Part shown: positions 3,046 through 11,488 of the stretch, piece after piece
How the letters are laid out: every line of letters starts with the position of its first letter
Numbering within the stretch: the first letter of the stretch is position 1
IMG/VR virus record: IMGVR_UViG_3300048588_000170
Span: 1-32,864 of that record
Direction: 5' to 3' (one strand)
DNA from: a virus
Length of the DNA: 32,864 bases
Made by a program: the position numbers and the translations under genes
Notes under the pieces: generated by a model
Told to the model about the DNA's origin: nothing
The model's database searches: none
The model's input: only the letters and a program-made list of their open reading frames with translations

Positions 3046-5889
3046 TCATGCGATCGTCACCGCAATCGGGCCGGCGAGCGTTGTGCTTGCCCCGGTCAGG
3101 ACGTACAGATACCCGGTGCTGCCCGTCGTCAGGCCACCGCAGTTACCCTTGAGCGTGACGGAACTTGCTGACCATGCCGTATAGGGCTGAGGTTCCAGCA
3201 TCGTGCAGGCGGCGAGCGTGTTGGCGTTGCCGAGGACGATTCGGGTAGATGACCCAACATCGAGGAACAGGTCGGTGTGGTAGATCCAATTGTTGCCGGT
3301 GTCCCAGTCGCGGATGTATCCGCCGAAATGGAACGCGGCCTCACCATCAGCCGGCAGTGCGCCCGCGCTGAATCGCTCATCGCCGTCATCGTTCAGCACT
3401 TCACGGCGACCGAGGCCAGCTATCGCCGTCGTCTCGAATAGACGGAGGAACCCGTCCGAGGCGTGCCGCGCAACGTACTCAACCCGAACCCATCCCGCGC
3501 GAGGATTCGCGGCTTGCAGACCAGACAACCCAGCCGGCAGTGTGTCGCTGTATTGCCACTCGCCGGTAACCATATCCCCCGTCGATCTGACCCCATCGAT
3601 CCCGTGATACAGGTACGGAGAGTCCATGTAGTCGCCGCCGTGCCACTGGAATGAGCAGGGCTTCATCTGGTGGTCGTCTTCCCCTGCTCCGCCACCGTGG
3701 GCAGTGTCGTCCCACGAGGCATCCAAGCGCACGAGGAACGAGGCGTAGACTTCCTGCGGCATCGCTACTACGGGATAGCTCACTGAGCGCACGTTGTTGT
3801 ACGGGACGGCATCCGCATTCGCGCGCTTGCCGACCAGGTAGCGAGCGAGGCGTGCGTGGGGTGTGCTGGCACGCCAGCCGGAATTCTGGATGCTCTGGCT
3901 TGCCCCTTGCGTGTAGTCAAACGTGGGCGTCGTGCCGTCGCCGTTCCAGTGAAAATAGGGCGCATTGACCGGCGAGCCGTTCACGGTCTTCGTGCCGAAG
4001 ATTGAGCCCAAGCCATCCAACACGAAAGAACTGCCGTGCGTGAGAGTAAGCCCGACCGACACAACAGCTGCTGCCACATACTTGCTCGGCGTCGAAAACC
4101 AGCCCCGCCGCTCCCACGGCAGCGGTGATACCGGGCGATTGCTGCCGGGTTCATAGATTGCTTTCGCTACCACCTGACCATCGTTGTACAGTTGGCATAT
4201 CAGCTGCTTGGGTGACGTGCTGCCGTTAACGTCGATACGGAGGCATGAGACAAGTGGATCGTTCAACGGGTCGCCTATAACCTTCTCCGGCTCCCCGCTA
4301 TTGCTGATGTAGTGTATTTTGCTGCCGTCGTAGACACCGCCGTTGAAGGCATACGGGGCGAAGTCGCCATAGGTCGGCGGAACCTGCGGGTGATTGCTGA
4401 CAGTGCCGGTGAACCACGCGCTCCAGTTTTCGGCATGATTAGATCCGTCAGCTACGTCAGCATGGTGTACCCACATCTGCAAATGCACGTCGCCTGCCCA
4501 CGTCACCAGCACGCCGCTTGTGCCGTTGGTTTTCGAGTTCGCCATCAGCGACGCTGGCGTTCCAGAGTTGCGGGTAAACAACCGACTCCACTCATCAGGG
4601 CACCTTGGCTTCATCTCCTGATGATTCGGGTGCCCGGTCACCGCTGGGTAGGCATCGCAGTACGCCTTATCGCCAGCGGCCTTACCGAGAATCGTGAACG
4701 GTTTTGCTGCTGTATCTATTGCAGTGAGGATGTCATCTATCTGGTCATCGCCGTACCACGGAGAGACGCTACTTGCGTACAGTGCAGCCGGGTTGCTTGC
4801 AGTTGCCCGTGTTTCTGTTATCCCGTCCCATCCCATCTTGGTCTTGTCGTCTGGCGAAACCAGAAATGCGTCGCCGAAGCTGATCCCGACATGACGGGAA
4901 TCAGTATCGAGATTGTTCAACGTGGCTGTGGAATTGAGATGGTCAAATAGCTGCCCCCATGCCATGGTAGCAGCGGCCCATAAATCGGGCTGGTTTTCTG
5001 GGCCGGTGCCAATGTTATAGGCGAATTGGTCGGTGAATTCGTGATCGCCCCATTGCGTGAGAATCATGTTGAAGTTTCGCAGCGCCCACGCCCGGTTAGG
5101 CTCTCGCCCGCCCTTCATGGGCAGGGTGGTAGCATCTTCGCCCATACCGAGCATTCCGTGGCTGTAGAACAGTCCAAAGTCGTAACCGTTTTGTGTGGTC
5201 TGCGGGGCGAGCGGGGTGCCCGGTGCGGCAGCCGTCCCGGCGCTCTTTTTTGTGGTGTCAACAACGACCCCAGCATCTGCGTAACCAAAATCATCCACGA
5301 ACCAGATATAAGCCAACTCGCTCGGATTCTGCGATTGCCAGCGTTTCATGTAGCCATAGGCGTTGATGTAGCGAGTGCCTGCTGCCACTGCACTGTCATC
5401 GTTATCGTGGCCTAGCGCCCGAAGCTGATCGCAGCTCAGGCACCACAGCTTGTAATCATCGCCGGGTGCTGGGGCGGTGCATGTCGATATGCCATCCGTT
5501 GAACTGGCTCCTTCCACCACACCGCCCTGCGTGAGCGTGATGTAGTAGCGGGTGCCTGAGGTCAGGTCGGTCAGCGTGTGCCGCCCAATCCAGCAGACAT
5601 ACGTATTCCCCAAAGCGTCAGGCTGATCGGCGGTTCCACCAAACACCTTAGCGTCAGTGCGGTCGTCACAGTATTTGGTCAGCAGGCCGTTTGTTGCCCC
5701 GCTGCCCGGATTTGTGCCGCCGCCAGTCGAAGCCGTGACCGTGCGCGTGCTATGCAGACTCGTCAAGGCCGCATCGGTGTACACGCTGATCGTGATAGCT
5801 GCGTCAGTATCCGACAACACCACAACCGGAATACTGGTCGTGGTCGGCGTGCCGGACAGCCAGCCAATCAATCGGCGTGGAGCTGCCAT
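3046..5889 (-). CDS. Tail fibre/spike protein with a PhoD-like metallophosphoesterase domain
   Basis: A 947-residue protein. An N-terminal beta domain (about 1-140) precedes a region with motifs in the order seen in PhoD-type phosphodiesterases: LSCDQ (151-155), FVDDFGYAD (197-205), WGDHEFTD (280-287) and AGDVHLQMW (465-473). The PhoD equivalents are SCQ, GDxIYE, WDDHE and SGDxHW; the second box here has DD where PhoD has GD. The C-terminal 350 residues look like a carbohydrate-binding beta sandwich (FHFGGYIRDWDTGNNWIYHT). Placed after J and before lysis genes, it is probably a virion adhesin able to cleave a phosphate ester in surface polysaccharide, which is inference. It is visibly less GC-rich than the head genes, suggesting acquisition. 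ATGA overlap with the upstream fibre gene. Confidence 0.68.
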   Translation of the reverse strand: MAAPRRLIGWLSGTPTTTSIPVVVLSDTDAAITISVYTDAALTSLHSTRTVTASTGGGTNPGSGATNGLLTKYCDDRTDAKVFGGTADQPDALGNTYVCWIGRHTLTDLTSGTRYYITLTQGGVVEGASSTDGISTCTAPAPGDDYKLWCLSCDQLRALGHDNDDSAVAAGTRYINAYGYMKRWQSQNPSELAYIWFVDDFGYADAGVVVDTTKKSAGTAAAPGTPLAPQTTQNGYDFGLFYSHGMLGMGEDATTLPMKGGREPNRAWALRNFNMILTQWGDHEFTDQFAYNIGTGPENQPDLWAAATMAWGQLFDHLNSTATLNNLDTDSRHVGISFGDAFLVSPDDKTKMGWDGITETRATASNPAALYASSVSPWYGDDQIDDILTAIDTAAKPFTILGKAAGDKAYCDAYPAVTGHPNHQEMKPRCPDEWSRLFTRNSGTPASLMANSKTNGTSGVLVTWAGDVHLQMWVHHADVADGSNHAENWSAWFTGTVSNHPQVPPTYGDFAPYAFNGGVYDGSKIHYISNSGEPEKVIGDPLNDPLVSCLRIDVNGSTSPKQLICQLYNDGQVVAKAIYEPGSNRPVSPLPWERRGWFSTPSKYVAAAVVSVGLTLTHGSSFVLDGLGSIFGTKTVNGSPVNAPYFHWNGDGTTPTFDYTQGASQSIQNSGWRASTPHARLARYLVGKRANADAVPYNNVRSVSYPVVAMPQEVYASFLVRLDASWDDTAHGGGAGEDDHQMKPCSFQWHGGDYMDSPYLYHGIDGVRSTGDMVTGEWQYSDTLPAGLSGLQAANPRAGWVRVEYVARHASDGFLRLFETTAIAGLGRREVLNDDGDERFSAGALPADGEAAFHFGGYIRDWDTGNNWIYHTDLFLDVGSSTRIVLGNANTLAACTMLEPQPYTAWSASSVTLKGNCGGLTTGSTGYLYVLTGASTTLAGPIAVTIA

Positions 5890-7037
5890 CAGGTGATATT
5901 CCCTTCGTCGAGGTCAAACGCACCTAGCGTGCCCCTGTTCGTCCCCGCGTTCCACTCGCTCGGCAGTTGACCGCGACCGAAGAACACCTCCGGCAGCACA
6001 CCGCCAATCGCACCTGTCGCGCCGGGGTCTTCGTCTGCCAGCACCGCCTGCAACTGCGCGGCATCGTATGTCTCGGTGGTGTATGAAATAGTGTCACTGA
6101 CGGTCAGCGCGCCGGCCGACCACGCGCCAGTCGTCACGACGCCCGTGTCGGGATCGAACGTGCTGACAGTTGCGGTTGCTGCCGTCGTGCCGTTCGTGAT
6201 CGTCGCGCCGACTACTATCGAGGCGCCGGGGTTAACAGTGAAATTTGTGTCGGTTGTCTTGGCAGTGACCGTCGCAAAGGCACCAGTCTGCGCGGTAACC
6301 AGCTTGATCGGATGACAGTCATCGGTCAGCCAGAGACGAATCTCCGACAGCTTGCCCCGGTAAAAGTTTGTACTCGAACCGGTGACAGCGGCTGCTGTCC
6401 CGCCGATTGCCAGGGTGTCACACGCCGCCAGCGGAACAGCGATGCCGGAAGAGAGCCATGAGACCGTAAAAGCCGGAGATGTCGCCCCGTTTTTATAGAA
6501 CTGCGCGTAGCCGTTATTGTCACCACTATTCAGCGACAGAATAGCGATGAACTCATCACCAACGTCAAGGGTATTCCCGCCTCCTGAAGTGGTCGCACCG
6601 CCGCCGAACTGGCAATTTGCCTGACCGACGGTTGCGGCTGCGGCCTGACGCCGTAGTCCAACGCGGGTAGTTGCCCCTTCACTGATTGCCAATATGTGCT
6701 GGTTGTAAGCCCCGACGGCCTGATCCGTGCCCTGATACATCGGATGGCCAGTGCCGGGGTTATCAATTACGATCTTCCCCTTGACAATCGCCCGCATCCG
6801 GTAGGTGTCAGACAGCAGACCGGTTATATCCAGTGACAACATGTCCTTGACGTTGCCTGCGCCGAACTGTACATAGCGCGGGGCGTAGGCAGCTTCGTAA
6901 AGCTCCGCGCTCATCGAGTTGATGTCGGCCATCCAGTCGCAGATCACCTGACCGCCAGCGCGGAGCTGACTGCCGGTGCCGTCGTTCGGCGTGGTGCCGA
7001 GACCAAGCTCGGACGGGACAAGGGGAATGCGGGCCAT
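5889..7037 (-). CDS. Tail fibre-like protein with shared RIPLV head and LamG-like fold
   Basis: A 382-residue protein. It begins MARIPLV, then LGLGTTPNDGTG, a motif seen at the head of many phage tail-fibre proteins and repeated in the gene upstream (7078-7422). Residues about 50-260 are beta-rich and look like a LamG/concanavalin-type sandwich (YRMRAIVKGKIVIDNPGTG; FYRGKLSEIRLWL). The C-terminal part has Thr/Val-rich repeats (TVTAKTTDTNFTVNPGASIV) typical of structural beta domains. Ribosome site AAGGAG five bases before ATG. Probably a receptor-binding or fibre subunit; no enzymatic motif seen. Confidence 0.65.
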   Translation of the reverse strand: MARIPLVPSELGLGTTPNDGTGSQLRAGGQVICDWMADINSMSAELYEAAYAPRYVQFGAGNVKDMLSLDITGLLSDTYRMRAIVKGKIVIDNPGTGHPMYQGTDQAVGAYNQHILAISEGATTRVGLRRQAAAATVGQANCQFGGGATTSGGGNTLDVGDEFIAILSLNSGDNNGYAQFYKNGATSPAFTVSWLSSGIAVPLAACDTLAIGGTAAAVTGSSTNFYRGKLSEIRLWLTDDCHPIKLVTAQTGAFATVTAKTTDTNFTVNPGASIVVGATITNGTTAATATVSTFDPDTGVVTTGAWSAGALTVSDTISYTTETYDAAQLQAVLADEDPGATGAIGGVLPEVFFGRGQLPSEWNAGTNRGTLGAFDLDEGNIT

Positions 7038-7077: not shown

Positions 7078-7422
7078 TTAGGTGATGGTGCCGACGCCGA
7101 CGATGACGACATCGATCACGGCGGAAGCTGCGCCGGACGTGTTGGTCAGCAGCAGCTTGTCGGTGGTGTTGTTGACGACCGCCCAGCCGGATGCGGCCGG
7201 GTTGGCGAGCACGCAGAAGCCGCCAGCCTCGAGCTTGATGGTATCGCCAGTGCCGTCGTTCGGGGTCGTGCCGACGTTGAGCTGCGTCGCGCCGTTGTCC
7301 AGCAGGATCTGGTCAGCCGTCACTGGCAGGACCACGCAAAGAGCGGCCGCCACAGCCAGCAACAGCCGCTTGGCAACAGCGCCCAGGTTCAGGTCGGCTT
7401 CTACGAGAGGGATGCGGGACAT
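7078..7422 (-). CDS. Small fibre-like protein with an internal signal-peptide-like segment
   Basis: A 114-residue protein that opens with MSRIPLVEADLNLG, close to the next gene's MARIPLVPSELGLG. A hydrophobic run (about 19-36, LLLAVAAALCVVLPVTA) ending in a plausible signal peptidase site (VTA/DQ) comes next, and then LNVGTTPNDGTGD, again shared with the next gene. The C-terminus is a small beta domain (WAVVNNTTDKLLLTNTSG). It looks like the neighbour's head with an export segment inserted. It may be a minor fibre, a decoration protein or an exported lysogen protein. Stop is followed by a GC-rich inverted repeat (GCCCG/CGGGC) before the next SD. Confidence 0.6.
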   Translation of the reverse strand: MSRIPLVEADLNLGAVAKRLLLAVAAALCVVLPVTADQILLDNGATQLNVGTTPNDGTGDTIKLEAGGFCVLANPAASGWAVVNNTTDKLLLTNTSGAASAVIDVVIVGVGTIT

Positions 7423-7466: not shown

Positions 7467-7883
7467 TCACTTCAACTTGGCACGCAGGGCGGCGATTTCC
7501 GAATCGAGATCAGCGATCCGCTGGCGTGCGTCTCTGTCTGATGGCGTCAGCATCAACTCCCGGATGGCTCTGGGCTGCCGGGCCTCGATACGCTGGATCA
7601 TCGACTGCAGTGCCCGCTGCTCGGCTTGGGCGGCGATCACTGCATCGGGCAGCTTCCAGCGCTTTATGGCGGCGTCCCATTCGTGCTGGACGCTCGGGGC
7701 TGGTGGCTGGTAATCGACAACATCACCGGTCTCGATGTCCACGCGCTGCGACAGGTGGTCGAGCTTGCCCTCGATGCGGGTCAGTCCGGGCCGGGTGTTG
7801 GCTTCCGCCTGCCGCTCCGAGTGGGTCACGGTCTCTGCCGAAAGCTCGCCGGTCGCTGGGTCGAAAAAAGAATAGGTTTTCAT
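7467..7883 (-). CDS. Tail-associated protein with C-terminal coiled coil, unknown
   Basis: A 138-residue protein. The start (FFDPATGELSAETVTHSE) and the phrase ETGDVVDYQPPAP resemble short domains found in small proteins encoded after the J gene in many siphophages. The C-terminal half (about 75-138) is charged and helical and probably forms a coiled coil (DARQRIADLDSEIAALRAKL). The ATG shares ATGA with the stop of J, so it is co-translated with the tail tip. It may be a fibre assembly chaperone or a minor tail subunit; no enzymatic motif. Confidence 0.7.
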   Translation of the reverse strand: MKTYSFFDPATGELSAETVTHSERQAEANTRPGLTRIEGKLDHLSQRVDIETGDVVDYQPPAPSVQHEWDAAIKRWKLPDAVIAAQAEQRALQSMIQRIEARQPRAIRELMLTPSDRDARQRIADLDSEIAALRAKLK

Positions 7884-10800
7884 CGCTTCACCGCCGTCAG
7901 GCTGATTTCAATTTCGCCCACACTGAGCGTTGTTGGCTCGGTTGTGGCTCCTGCAATATAGACGTGCACATCTATGCCGAAGTAGGCGGAAAATCGCTTG
8001 TTTGCTGGCAGCGTGTAGGTTGCATTGAGAGTTTTGAATATCGGCCACGTCTCGCCGCTGTGGTCTGTCGGGTCCGATACCTGGCCAATGGGCACAGGCA
8101 CTGCCCCGCTCCAATCCGCGTTGTGCTGGTAACCGACCGCATAGACCGTGTGATTGGACGATGCGATGCCCGCAGAAACTGCGGCATTGCCTGAGAACAT
8201 GGCCGCAATCTGCAGCTCCACAGACTCGCTGCTATCGTTGTAGTAAGAGGCCGTGCCGGCCGGCAGGAAAAGCGCATTGGTATTGATTGGCCCGGTACGA
8301 TTCTCGACCAGCGTCGATGATCCGGCGTTGGTGCGCACGATGCTGGTAGCTGCTTCGCCGACAAGCTGCGGCGTATCCACCTCATCCAGATACGCCAGCG
8401 CCCCCTGCGGTGACAGCAGCGTCTGAATCGTGGCTTCGTTGCCGGTGATCGCCTCAAAGCGAGGCTTGGCGAAGTAGACCAGGCAGTAGAAGTCGTTGGT
8501 GTAGTACTGATACACCCGCTGCATCTGCGTGGCCTGCGCTGAGTAGCGCATTTTGAACTCGGTGCCGTCGTAGATTTTCAGCCCGGTCTCTGGGTCGTAA
8601 AGCCCGGCAATCCCCGAATCACCGCCCGAGTAGCTGTAGCCGTGGATCACGCCTACTGACAGATACCACTTGTCGGCAACAATCCCGAGCGTCGCCGGTG
8701 CGCCGTACATGAAGTAAGGGTTGCTATCGACCGCCCCGGCCAGCGTGAAGGTGTTGTTCGGGTCGCAGCCGTGGTAGAACTGCGGCGTGCCGAGGCCGTT
8801 CCAGCGAACCCAGACGACCGACCGATAGCTCTTGCCGGGGTCGATTCCGGTGATGTCGCCGCTGTTGTCCCAGCCGCCATTCCCGGACGTGCCGTTACCG
8901 ATGGTCCGCCACAGTGGCTCGCTCTGACCATATGGGCCGAGCGGGTGGCCCGTCGCGCCACCCAGCACGATGCTGCTTGGCGTGGGGCTAGTGATAGCCA
9001 CGAAGTTTCCGACCGTGCCAGAAGCCCCGGCCCGCCAGCCGTCCACGTTGAGCTTGTTCGGGCCGGAGTGGAAACCACCAGCCACCATGCCGAATTTCAC
9101 GGTATCGAGCTGACCGCCAACCGTGACCATGATCGCCTTGGCCCGCATCGGCAGGCCGTTCGCTGGCGAGGCATAGATCAGCACGCCGTCCATCAGGTAA
9201 CGCACGGACAGGCCGTCATTGGTGATGCTGAATACGGTCTCGCGGGTGAAGGTCGGCACGGTCACTGTGCGCTGCGTGCCGAGCTCCCAGACCTGCGCGG
9301 TGCCTGATGTCGTCGTCAGCCGCCATGCATATTCGAGGGCGGAACTGGCCGTGCCGCTGGTCGCCGTGGTCAGTCCGATATAGGCCTCTTTCGCCAGCAC
9401 CGAGCACCGGAACGACAGCGCACTCGACATGCCCTGCGTTTCCTTCGTGGTCGCTGCCGAGTCTTCGGCATTCGACCCCGACGCCTTGAAGATCGATTGG
9501 CCGAATACCGATGCAGTGCCGGCAACGGTCCAGATGTTCTCGGCGTTGTCCTGGTAAGACCCATCGAGCGGCAGGACCGTGGTGTATGGCGAGACCGCCG
9601 ACAGATCCTGCTCGCCGCGCCCGTAGATGTTGAAGCTGGTGAACTTGAGGTACATCGTCGTGCCGGCGAGACCCGGATCGTAGGGAATCGCAGCCAGCCG
9701 GTCATCGATGCGCGCGAACGCCGCCCCGCTGCTGTGGCTTGCCGGGGCCGAGCCGTACAGGCCGCGTCGCAGGTAGGTCAGCGTGTAGGCTCCGGGTGCA
9801 GTCAGTGAGGCATCGCGGAAGGCCATGATCTCGCCGCCCACATAGATCATGTTGGCGCGCAGCCCGTCCACGTCTGCCTGCGTGCCGCCGGTCAGTTGCA
9901 TGGTCGTGGTGGCCATGGTCACCGCAACCGTGCCGGCAGTGTCCGGGTCTGCATGGCTGGCGGTCGATGCGCTCAGGACGCCATAGCGGGATTCACCGCT
10001 GATCGAGCCGATCAGCCGATAGTCCAGGTCATCGAACGACGCCCACACCGAACAGCCGCCCCAGTTGGCGTCCGCTCCGGTGATGGCCACCCAGATTTCC
10101 GACCCGCCAGCCGGGCCGACCATGCGCGAAGGCGCGGCAAAAATCAGCGGGGCAGAGACATTGCCCGGCGCCACGTTGTAGTTGGCGGCGTAGCCCTGCG
10201 CCAGCTCCCAGTTGTACTGCGGGGAAGAAGCGATCCCGAGCGGCACCTCGTCCACCTCGATGGTCAGCACGTCATCCGGGTCATCCGTGATGGATGTAAT
10301 CCGCACAAGCTGGTTGTCCAGCCCCAGTGTGCTGTCAGTGATGGACAGCAGGTCCATCGGTTCCAGCAGCGAATAATCCGGGCGCAGGCGGAAGCGGTAG
10401 GCATTCACCGTGTAGAGCTGGCGCTGCAGGATGATCTGCGCCACCTGCTTGGCCAGCGTGCCGGTCTTGATCGCGTGCAGGTTGATGGTCGGCATGACCC
10501 GCTCGCCGTTCAGGGCGATGTCGGCATCGTCCCAGGCTTCGGCAACGGCGGTGTTGTACTGGTGGCTGCGGTCCAGATACTCGATGCGAACCCGGTTGTA
10601 CCGCTCGCTCTGCGGCTTGCGGATCAGCTCGACCGGCGGCTCGCCCGGCAGAAAGTCGTCATCGGTCAGCGCATAGACCGGTGCCATGTTCGGGGTATAG
10701 GTCTGGCCGTTGCCGGTCACCGCCTCGTCGGCATACGGGAGCACCTTCAGCACGCCCGCCGACCAGACAACCTCCGAGTTCGTGACGGCCATCAGCTCCT

Positions 10801-11488
10801 TCAGGAACTCCGCCGCCTGCCGCTGCGTCGTTTCTTCCGGGCTGATGAAGATCCCGCGCGCGATGCAGTAGGTCTGGAAGGAATTGGCCCCGGTGATCGT
10901 GCCGAGGTACGGGAACTGCGCGCCATGGCTGGCACTGCCGAGATAGTCGGCAAGGATGGCGGCCGGCTCTGCGTCGTCGATGCCGGAACCGTAGGGCAGG
11001 AAGCCAGTCACCTCGAATGACAGCGTTGGGAGCCCGGCGGAGTGCCCGAGTTCCAGCCCGCTCGATGCGACGTAGGCCGTGTGATCGTAGGGAATCGCCT
11101 GCGATGGGTTGTAGGTCGACAGGAATGACCAGGTTGCCTGTCCGCCAGCTCCGCTGAACAGCGTCAGTCCCAGCTCCGCCAGCGAGGTGATCGCCTTGTC
11201 TTCGTAGACCGTACCGACGGCCGTGATCGGCCCCTCGGCCAGCGCCAGCATGACGGCGGTGCGGTAGATGTATGACGTGCTGGTGACCCCGCCGCCGCCC
11301 TTGCCGCCCTGCTCCTGCACGATGGCGGTTGAGCGGAAGTTCCCATACCAAATCAGCGCACCCGGCACGCGGGCCTTGCCGTAGACCAGCGGGATCGTGT
11401 CGCCGTAGACCGACCGCTGAAGCTGGATGCCCTGCAGCCGCTTCTCGGAGGTGGACTGGGTTTTGGCCCCGCCGATCAGGCCGCTCAT
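7880..11488 (-). CDS. J-like tail tip / host specificity protein
   Basis: A 1202-residue protein in the position of lambda J and gene-transfer-agent ORFg15. The N-terminus (GAKTQSTSEKRLQGIQLQRS, then GDTIPLVYGKARVPG) and the segment FRLRPDYSLLEPMDLLSITD fit the phage tail tip family that forms the hub and central fibre. The last 600 residues are Gly/Ser/Thr-rich beta domains with lectin-like stretches, probably contacting the receptor. It overlaps the NlpC/P60 gene upstream and the small tail gene downstream by ATGA. The large plus-strand frames opposite it are shadows of its GC-rich codons. Confidence 0.9.
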   Translation of the reverse strand: MSGLIGGAKTQSTSEKRLQGIQLQRSVYGDTIPLVYGKARVPGALIWYGNFRSTAIVQEQGGKGGGGVTSTSYIYRTAVMLALAEGPITAVGTVYEDKAITSLAELGLTLFSGAGGQATWSFLSTYNPSQAIPYDHTAYVASSGLELGHSAGLPTLSFEVTGFLPYGSGIDDAEPAAILADYLGSASHGAQFPYLGTITGANSFQTYCIARGIFISPEETTQRQAAEFLKELMAVTNSEVVWSAGVLKVLPYADEAVTGNGQTYTPNMAPVYALTDDDFLPGEPPVELIRKPQSERYNRVRIEYLDRSHQYNTAVAEAWDDADIALNGERVMPTINLHAIKTGTLAKQVAQIILQRQLYTVNAYRFRLRPDYSLLEPMDLLSITDSTLGLDNQLVRITSITDDPDDVLTIEVDEVPLGIASSPQYNWELAQGYAANYNVAPGNVSAPLIFAAPSRMVGPAGGSEIWVAITGADANWGGCSVWASFDDLDYRLIGSISGESRYGVLSASTASHADPDTAGTVAVTMATTTMQLTGGTQADVDGLRANMIYVGGEIMAFRDASLTAPGAYTLTYLRRGLYGSAPASHSSGAAFARIDDRLAAIPYDPGLAGTTMYLKFTSFNIYGRGEQDLSAVSPYTTVLPLDGSYQDNAENIWTVAGTASVFGQSIFKASGSNAEDSAATTKETQGMSSALSFRCSVLAKEAYIGLTTATSGTASSALEYAWRLTTTSGTAQVWELGTQRTVTVPTFTRETVFSITNDGLSVRYLMDGVLIYASPANGLPMRAKAIMVTVGGQLDTVKFGMVAGGFHSGPNKLNVDGWRAGASGTVGNFVAITSPTPSSIVLGGATGHPLGPYGQSEPLWRTIGNGTSGNGGWDNSGDITGIDPGKSYRSVVWVRWNGLGTPQFYHGCDPNNTFTLAGAVDSNPYFMYGAPATLGIVADKWYLSVGVIHGYSYSGGDSGIAGLYDPETGLKIYDGTEFKMRYSAQATQMQRVYQYYTNDFYCLVYFAKPRFEAITGNEATIQTLLSPQGALAYLDEVDTPQLVGEAATSIVRTNAGSSTLVENRTGPINTNALFLPAGTASYYNDSSESVELQIAAMFSGNAAVSAGIASSNHTVYAVGYQHNADWSGAVPVPIGQVSDPTDHSGETWPIFKTLNATYTLPANKRFSAYFGIDVHVYIAGATTEPTTLSVGEIEISLTAVKR

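Follow-up and report, generated by a model that had tools for sequence, protein, structure and literature searches.

The window, meaning the whole stretch of DNA analysed here, is a complete IMG/VR virus record of 32,864 bases. Its minus-strand gene order begins with terminase, portal, capsid/protease, further head and tail genes and the tape measure. Next come a gene matching phrog_2913 ('glycoside hydrolase'), a baseplate hub gene, an NlpC/P60-like minor tail gene and a gene for a J-like tip protein, followed by two small genes, a gene for a 382-aa fibre protein (5889–7037, minus strand) and the gene that is the subject of this report. That gene (3046–5889, minus strand) has its ATG at 5889 and its stop at 3046, and consists of 947 codons plus the stop; the plus strand across the same interval has many stops. 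A preliminary description of the window had placed a 947-residue protein in tail-fibre position at these coordinates. The ORF was confirmed, with its strand corrected to minus, and the position is borne out by the gene order from the tape measure through the fibre gene. Beyond it lie small membrane-type genes, a spanin-like gene and an endolysin gene, making it the end of the tail cluster. Similar tip proteins occur in phages of Pseudomonas, Acinetobacter and Brevundimonas; these hosts, together with the spanin-like gene, make a Gram-negative host likely, and the virus is probably a siphovirus-like phage of such a host.

The stop codon of the 382-aa fibre gene overlaps the start of the gene under study (TGATG), and overlaps of 1–4 bases with the upstream gene are also present in the relatives L014, L015, L017 and L005. 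The upstream protein of the window is homologous over its body to the upstream protein of L005, while its first 48 residues share 67% identity with the upstream protein of L014 and the remainder differs from it – a conserved start with a differing remainder is typical of fibre modules. A related pattern occurs in the window itself. The consecutive minus-strand genes at 7078–7422 and 5889–7037 both start with M-[AS]-RIPLV and both contain GTTPNDGTG; L014 has the M-[AS]-RIPLV N-terminal segment too, and the segment resembles an attachment part that can be exchanged. In the tip protein (7880–11488, minus strand), the first 640 residues match other phage tip proteins and residues 851–1025 match a Vibrio virus SBP1 tail protein, which suggests a grafted C-terminal part.

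PhoD is a bacterial enzyme that cuts phosphate links in teichoic acids. Four motifs of the 947-residue protein had been reported to lie in PhoD order, and all four were confirmed: SCDQ (C153), VDDFGYAD (D199, D200, Y203), WGDHEFTD (W280–D287) and AGDVHLQMW (D467, H469). All are encoded on the minus strand. In motif I (S-C153-D154, 5428–5436), C153 aligns with the iron ligand Cys-180 of PhoD. In motif II (D199-D200-F-G-Y203, 5281–5295), D200 and Y203 correspond in the alignment to the Asp and Tyr in the PhoD GDxxY, and D199 stands at the place of an invariant Gly. Motif III (W280-G281-D282-H283-E284-F-T-D287-Q288, 5026–5052) has G281 for Asp-265 of PhoD and D287/Q288 for Asn-271/Asn-272, and in motif IV (G-D467-V-H469, 4483–4494) D467 aligns with Asp-436.

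Relatives were sought by a DNA-pattern scan of viral contigs for W-G-D-H-E-F-x-[DN]. Of the ten stretches found, five code for unmistakable relatives of full length (L005, L006, L008, L009 and L010). These align with the window protein from the first residues to approximately residue 590, with 27–45% identity; over the catalytic part the identity is 26–44%. All six members share C153, D154, D199, D200, Y203, W280–F285, D467 and H469 without exception; for W280–F285 this is not independent, that stretch being part of the search pattern, while for the other residues it is. Chance occurrence of the motifs was rejected, as permuted-alignment controls were negative. Scanning for the patterns WDDHEF.[DN] and VDDFGY added no member, hence no intermediate between the two motif states. 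A set of 50,697 phage records, searched by tblastn with the window protein and with two relatives, contained no match, and neither did plasmids searched by tblastn with the window protein. Viral contigs scanned with the catalytic part as a single sequence yielded nothing either, and no relative emerged when 84,980 bacterial and archaeal genomes were scanned with the alignment.

The window protein alone had no match in Pfam, NCBIfam, PHROGs or the PDB sequences. PF09423 (PhoD) was the only Pfam family matched by members of the phage family, weakly in four of the six (best E 0.0034) and below the curated Pfam cut-off. A stronger relationship was seen with cellular PhoDs, gathered by pattern from bacterial and archaeal genomes. 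Profile-profile alignment (hhalign) of the phage family with 45 of these covered 443 columns with a probability of 98.7%, an E value of 2.1e-16 and a score of 133.9, compared to 11.0–23.1 for 30 reversed or column-shuffled versions. When the family was aligned with 54 PhoDs, motifs II–IV fell in the same register under all four MAFFT settings and motif I under three of four. The family model, run on 398 Pseudomonadota genomes, had a single match below E 0.001, and this was a cellular PhoD; the sole bacterial ORFs that it matched in these genomes and a few others were PhoDs with GDYxY, WDDHEF and GDxH. When the family profile was searched against the PDB, the one match, non-significant and annotated as a secreted alkaline phosphatase, was aligned at WDDHEF.

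Structure prediction and comparison with PhoD, as the preliminary description had proposed, agree with the profile result. An AlphaFold2 model was built from the six phage sequences alone, with no PhoD sequence included (mean pLDDT 48, pTM 0.62, low pLDDT in the motif loops). Its single significant PDB match by Foldseek was 2yeq, the PhoD structure (E 6e-7). By VIA-align the model reached Z 18.1 with kidney-bean purple acid phosphatase (PAP) and Z 17.2 with PhoD 2yeq (373 residues aligned, rmsd 4.5); the first unrelated structure scored 8.5. Beta strands are predicted at residues 146–151, 192–197, 274–278 and 460–465, with one motif directly after each, as the PhoD/PAP fold predicts. For the convergence of the Asp/His motifs on a metal site, the point on which the preliminary description had staked its reading, this placement in a model aligned along its full length to PhoD and PAP is indirect support. 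The VIA alignments to 2yeq and to the PAPs begin at model residue 1, and Fn3 domains occupy lower places among the VIA matches; residues 1–140 (5470–5889, minus strand) are assigned on this basis to the Fn3-like N-terminal domain of the fold. Residues 141–592 (4114–5469, minus strand) are assigned to the metallophosphoesterase domain by the profile and structure matches. The PhoD-like domain of the preliminary description is thus upheld in its fold and enlarged in its extent, to residues 1–592 with the Fn3-like domain included. From the profile alignment and its controls, the motif register, the structure matches and the bacterial matches of the family model, homology to PhoD is established across the Fn3 and catalytic length, although the Pfam cut-off was not reached.

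According to the report on B. subtilis PhoD (PMC4223295), that enzyme holds one Fe3+ and two Ca2+, with Cys-180 at the iron site; C180A, D265A, N271A, N272A and D436A abolish activity, and D207A and D266A cut it drastically. The Tyr and His ligands of PhoD were matched here by position within the motifs, and not by published residue number. The iron-site set is present in the phage family: C153, D200, Y203 and H469 align with those of 54 PhoDs and are invariant in six of six members. Overall, the phage proteins retain the motif I Cys, the Asp of motif II with its Tyr, the second of the two Asp residues of DDHE, and both the Asp and the His of GDxH. The set of calcium ligands (D265, D266, N271, N272 and D436) is incomplete, with D266 and D436 kept as D282 and D467. 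The equivalent of D265, the first Asp of WDDHE, is Gly281 in six of six members, WGDHE having been part of the search pattern; the preliminary description had overlooked this Gly. At the N271/N272 positions the window copy has D287/Q288, and the relatives have N and N/D. By sequence, then, the iron half of the metal site is intact and the calcium half altered.

These changes bear on whether the protein cuts at all. The D265 equivalent is Gly and D265 is needed in B. subtilis PhoD, so a protein with this altered calcium site need not be active. Non-enzymatic tail fibres are common, and the protein could be a binding-only relic whose PhoD fold is a scaffold for recognising a phosphorylated surface glycan, perhaps with metal bound, and not for cutting it. 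The lost D265 equivalent fits such a relic, as does the absence of both Asn ligands from the window copy. On the other hand, the iron-site ligands, the motif II Asp and the GDHE His are invariant across divergent members, whereas a relic should have lost some of them. The DD of motif II had been put forward as a possible sign of a relic, a reading that is weakened by its invariance: the Gly preceding the motif II Asp is present in 54 of 54 PhoDs, and Asp (D199) takes its place in six of six phage members. Damage in one copy is rejected as the source of the DD for the same reason, and an equally invariant new Asp resembles remodelling more than decay. The relic has an appreciable but clearly minor share of our expectation. 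The pattern of conservation makes an enzyme the more likely of the two, and the putative activity of the PhoD-like protein somewhat more probable than its absence.

D199 may, we suggest, compensate for the missing D265. A bolder extension is that the family makes up a clade of its own, virion phosphoesterases with a rewired version of the three-metal PhoD site, D199 spatially replacing the WDDHE Asp, to give a different metal set and a specificity for a phosphodiester-linked Gram-negative surface polymer. This extension is speculative and on balance doubtful. If it were true, the rewired site would represent a depolymerase chemistry not described for tail fibres. The changed metal motif is also a natural test of which PhoD calcium ligands matter.

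The remainder of the protein, residues 613–947 (3049–4053, minus strand), is a C-terminal all-beta module in a low-confidence model (pLDDT 40, best Z 7.8), possibly a ConA-like jelly roll. Sequence searches with the module gave no match of weight. Its best structural neighbours, all sub-threshold, are mostly ConA-like jelly rolls, of lectins as well as alginate lyases, and the model also matches two viral proteins of uncertain name. The lectin-like end of the preliminary description is therefore plausible as a predicted fold, its matches lying below threshold. The module closes a different protein in L148, L149 and L001; in L148 and L001 this protein is encoded directly after a presumed tailspike gene ('tailspike' being a reading with no family match of weight behind it). 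At L001:4521-5968 the module continues by tblastn past the stop of a 370-codon ORF, which may reflect a frameshift or misassembly. The many PL7 alginate lyases among the sub-threshold matches, and the occurrence of the module in its own protein beside a presumed tailspike gene in other phages, could mean that the module is the active depolymerase (a lyase-type jelly roll, for example) and the PhoD domain an accessory. Lectins and galectins share the same match rows of a model with such low pLDDT, however, and no lyase family was matched by sequence; an active depolymerase in this module is improbable.

Position does not point to the tail in every member. In L006 the gene sits in a replication/methyltransferase block, outside any tail cluster. 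This copy (L006:6222-7844, contig IMGVR_UViG_3300009537_000132) is a 540-codon family member between replication-type and DNA-methyltransferase genes, and it overlaps a small upstream ORF of ~71 codons, as read by eye. Such a location would suit a phosphatase with an auxiliary role, releasing phosphate for use by the infected cell – a cargo gene and no part of the tail – and the authors of the cyanophage YongM study relate their own PhoD to DNA anabolism. Several observations argue the other way: no signal peptide is apparent by eye at the N-terminus, where the PhoD fold begins directly; the gene overlaps the fibre gene in the window, and in four relatives it overlaps the gene upstream of it in a structural region; the C-terminal module otherwise ends tail-region proteins; and the YongM PhoD ranks high in a phage-concentrate proteome. 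A role as cargo is very unlikely for the window protein.

We favour, with some confidence, an active phosphoesterase fibre of PhoD fold, its catalysis being deduced from the conserved site. The gene product would be a tail-tip fibre protein of the virion, with residues 1–592 acting as a metallophosphoesterase of the PhoD/purple acid phosphatase type, built of the Fn3-like domain and a catalytic beta-sandwich. By analogy with PhoD, an iron-type metal would be coordinated by C153, D200, Y203 and H469, and a second metal by D200, D282 and D467. The attacking group would be a hydroxide bound to metal, its target a phosphodiester or phosphomonoester in capsule, O-antigen or phosphorylated LPS core, and the C-terminal module (613–947) would hold the enzyme at that surface glycan. 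The putative role is probably to help the virus attach to or cut a phosphate-containing coat. Counted against the enzyme are the Gly at the D265 position in all members, the D/Q at N271/N272, the lack of a Pfam match for the protein alone, the L006 copy outside a tail cluster, the mean pLDDT of 48 and a C-terminal fold that is putative. Of the preliminary interpretation as a whole, the fold and the tail position stand; the domain is larger than described, and the case for the DD as a mark of a relic is weakened.

Tail enzymes help determine which bacteria a phage reaches. A phosphoesterase of PhoD/PAP fold would widen the chemistry of the depolymerases usually described, and would be a potential tool against phosphate-linked capsules. 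The six-member family is missed by standard annotation (the window protein has no Pfam, NCBIfam or PHROG match), and such enzymes may be under-counted. Within the searches made, the clade with the changed metal motif is new to annotation. No paper on a PhoD-like phage tail fibre was found in a literature search whose coverage lay mostly outside subscription journals.

The closest known system is B. subtilis PhoD itself (PDB 2YEQ; PF09423). Both proteins join an Fn3-like N domain to a metallophosphoesterase (Z 17.2), and the Cys of motif I, the Asp and Tyr of motif II, the Asp and His of DHE and the Asp and His of GDxH are in register with 54 PhoDs. They differ in that identity is 15%, motif II has changed from GD to DD, motif III from WDD to WGD, and N271/N272 to D/Q; the phage protein is also virus-borne, apparently lacks an export signal and has a C-terminal module fused to it. 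Purple acid phosphatases (kidney bean, PDB 4DHL/1KBP) share the overall fold (Z 18.1), but have no sequence-level match, and at the iron site the phage protein has Cys where they have Asp. The GDHE of the phage protein, with Gly as its first residue, is reminiscent of the GNHE of these enzymes. The PAP site has an Asp iron ligand and a second metal held by His2-Asp-Asn, as given in PMC4223295. This ligand set is absent from the phage protein, with Cys at motif I, Asp for the GNHE Asn and GDxH at motif IV.

With cellular PhoDs as queries, phage precedents were found that have canonical PhoD motifs. P1312_022 of a Thermobifida phage (ALA06393.1, 'phosphodiesterase', 1,096 aa) has an N-terminal PhoD domain (PF09423, E 4e-14) and a weak carbohydrate-binding match, and its gene comes directly after the tape measure and tail protein genes. 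Unlike the window protein it has GDLHY, WDDHD and an Asp-type iron ligand, and tblastn from the window protein misses it as too divergent. The YongM 'alkaline phosphatase D' (QLF85062.1) combines a PhoD domain (E 7.8e-25) with a C-terminal extension and has counterparts in Anabaena Elbi and Dolichospermum Dfl-JY23; in YongM and Dfl-JY23 the gene adjoins that of a 'capsid fiber protein'. This group differs from the window protein in its canonical GDIHY and WDDHD and in its C-terminal part. Mass spectrometry of the phage concentrate detected the YongM PhoD and placed it seventh (PMC8875764); this distant PhoD is the one protein in the comparison with proteomic evidence. A YongM UV mutant with a one-base loss (frameshift) in the QLF85062.1 PhoD gene was viable (PMC11356776); the mutation lies beyond the catalytic part, and the C-terminal part at least seems dispensable on the laboratory host.

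Two further sets of records touch on this comparison. The 'hydrolase' of Streptomyces phage Paradiddles (gp144, L146) has a PhoD-type motif II (HLGDVHY) and HGDSH, with YSDNDF replacing WDDHE – another altered motif III – and its gene has tRNA genes and non-structural genes around it. Records labelled 'Acinetobacter phage MD-2021a' (CAKLQH020000021.1, CAKLQF020000019.1, CAKLQH020000001.1, CAKLQF020000001.1) reach 328–378 kb, others of that set include a 'phospholipase D precursor' with PhoD similarity, and these records may be bacterial contigs filed as phage.

Tail phosphodiesterases of another fold, GDPD, are described in phages of Gram-positive hosts, for example in an enterococcal phage (PF03009; PMC10194240) and, as cited in PMC6116005, as a tail/baseplate glycerophosphodiesterase of Lactobacillus phage Ld17. 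Like the proposed fibre they are phosphodiesterases of the phage tail, and these accounts take them to act on teichoic acids (PMC10194240, PMC6116005). They are unlike it in fold, catalytic residues and hosts, and the window protein has no PF03009 domain and no Pfam match of any kind. Given P1312_022, YongM and Dfl-JY23, a PhoD-type tail protein is not new as such, and the window protein would be a divergent variant of a tail-borne PhoD-like phosphoesterase.
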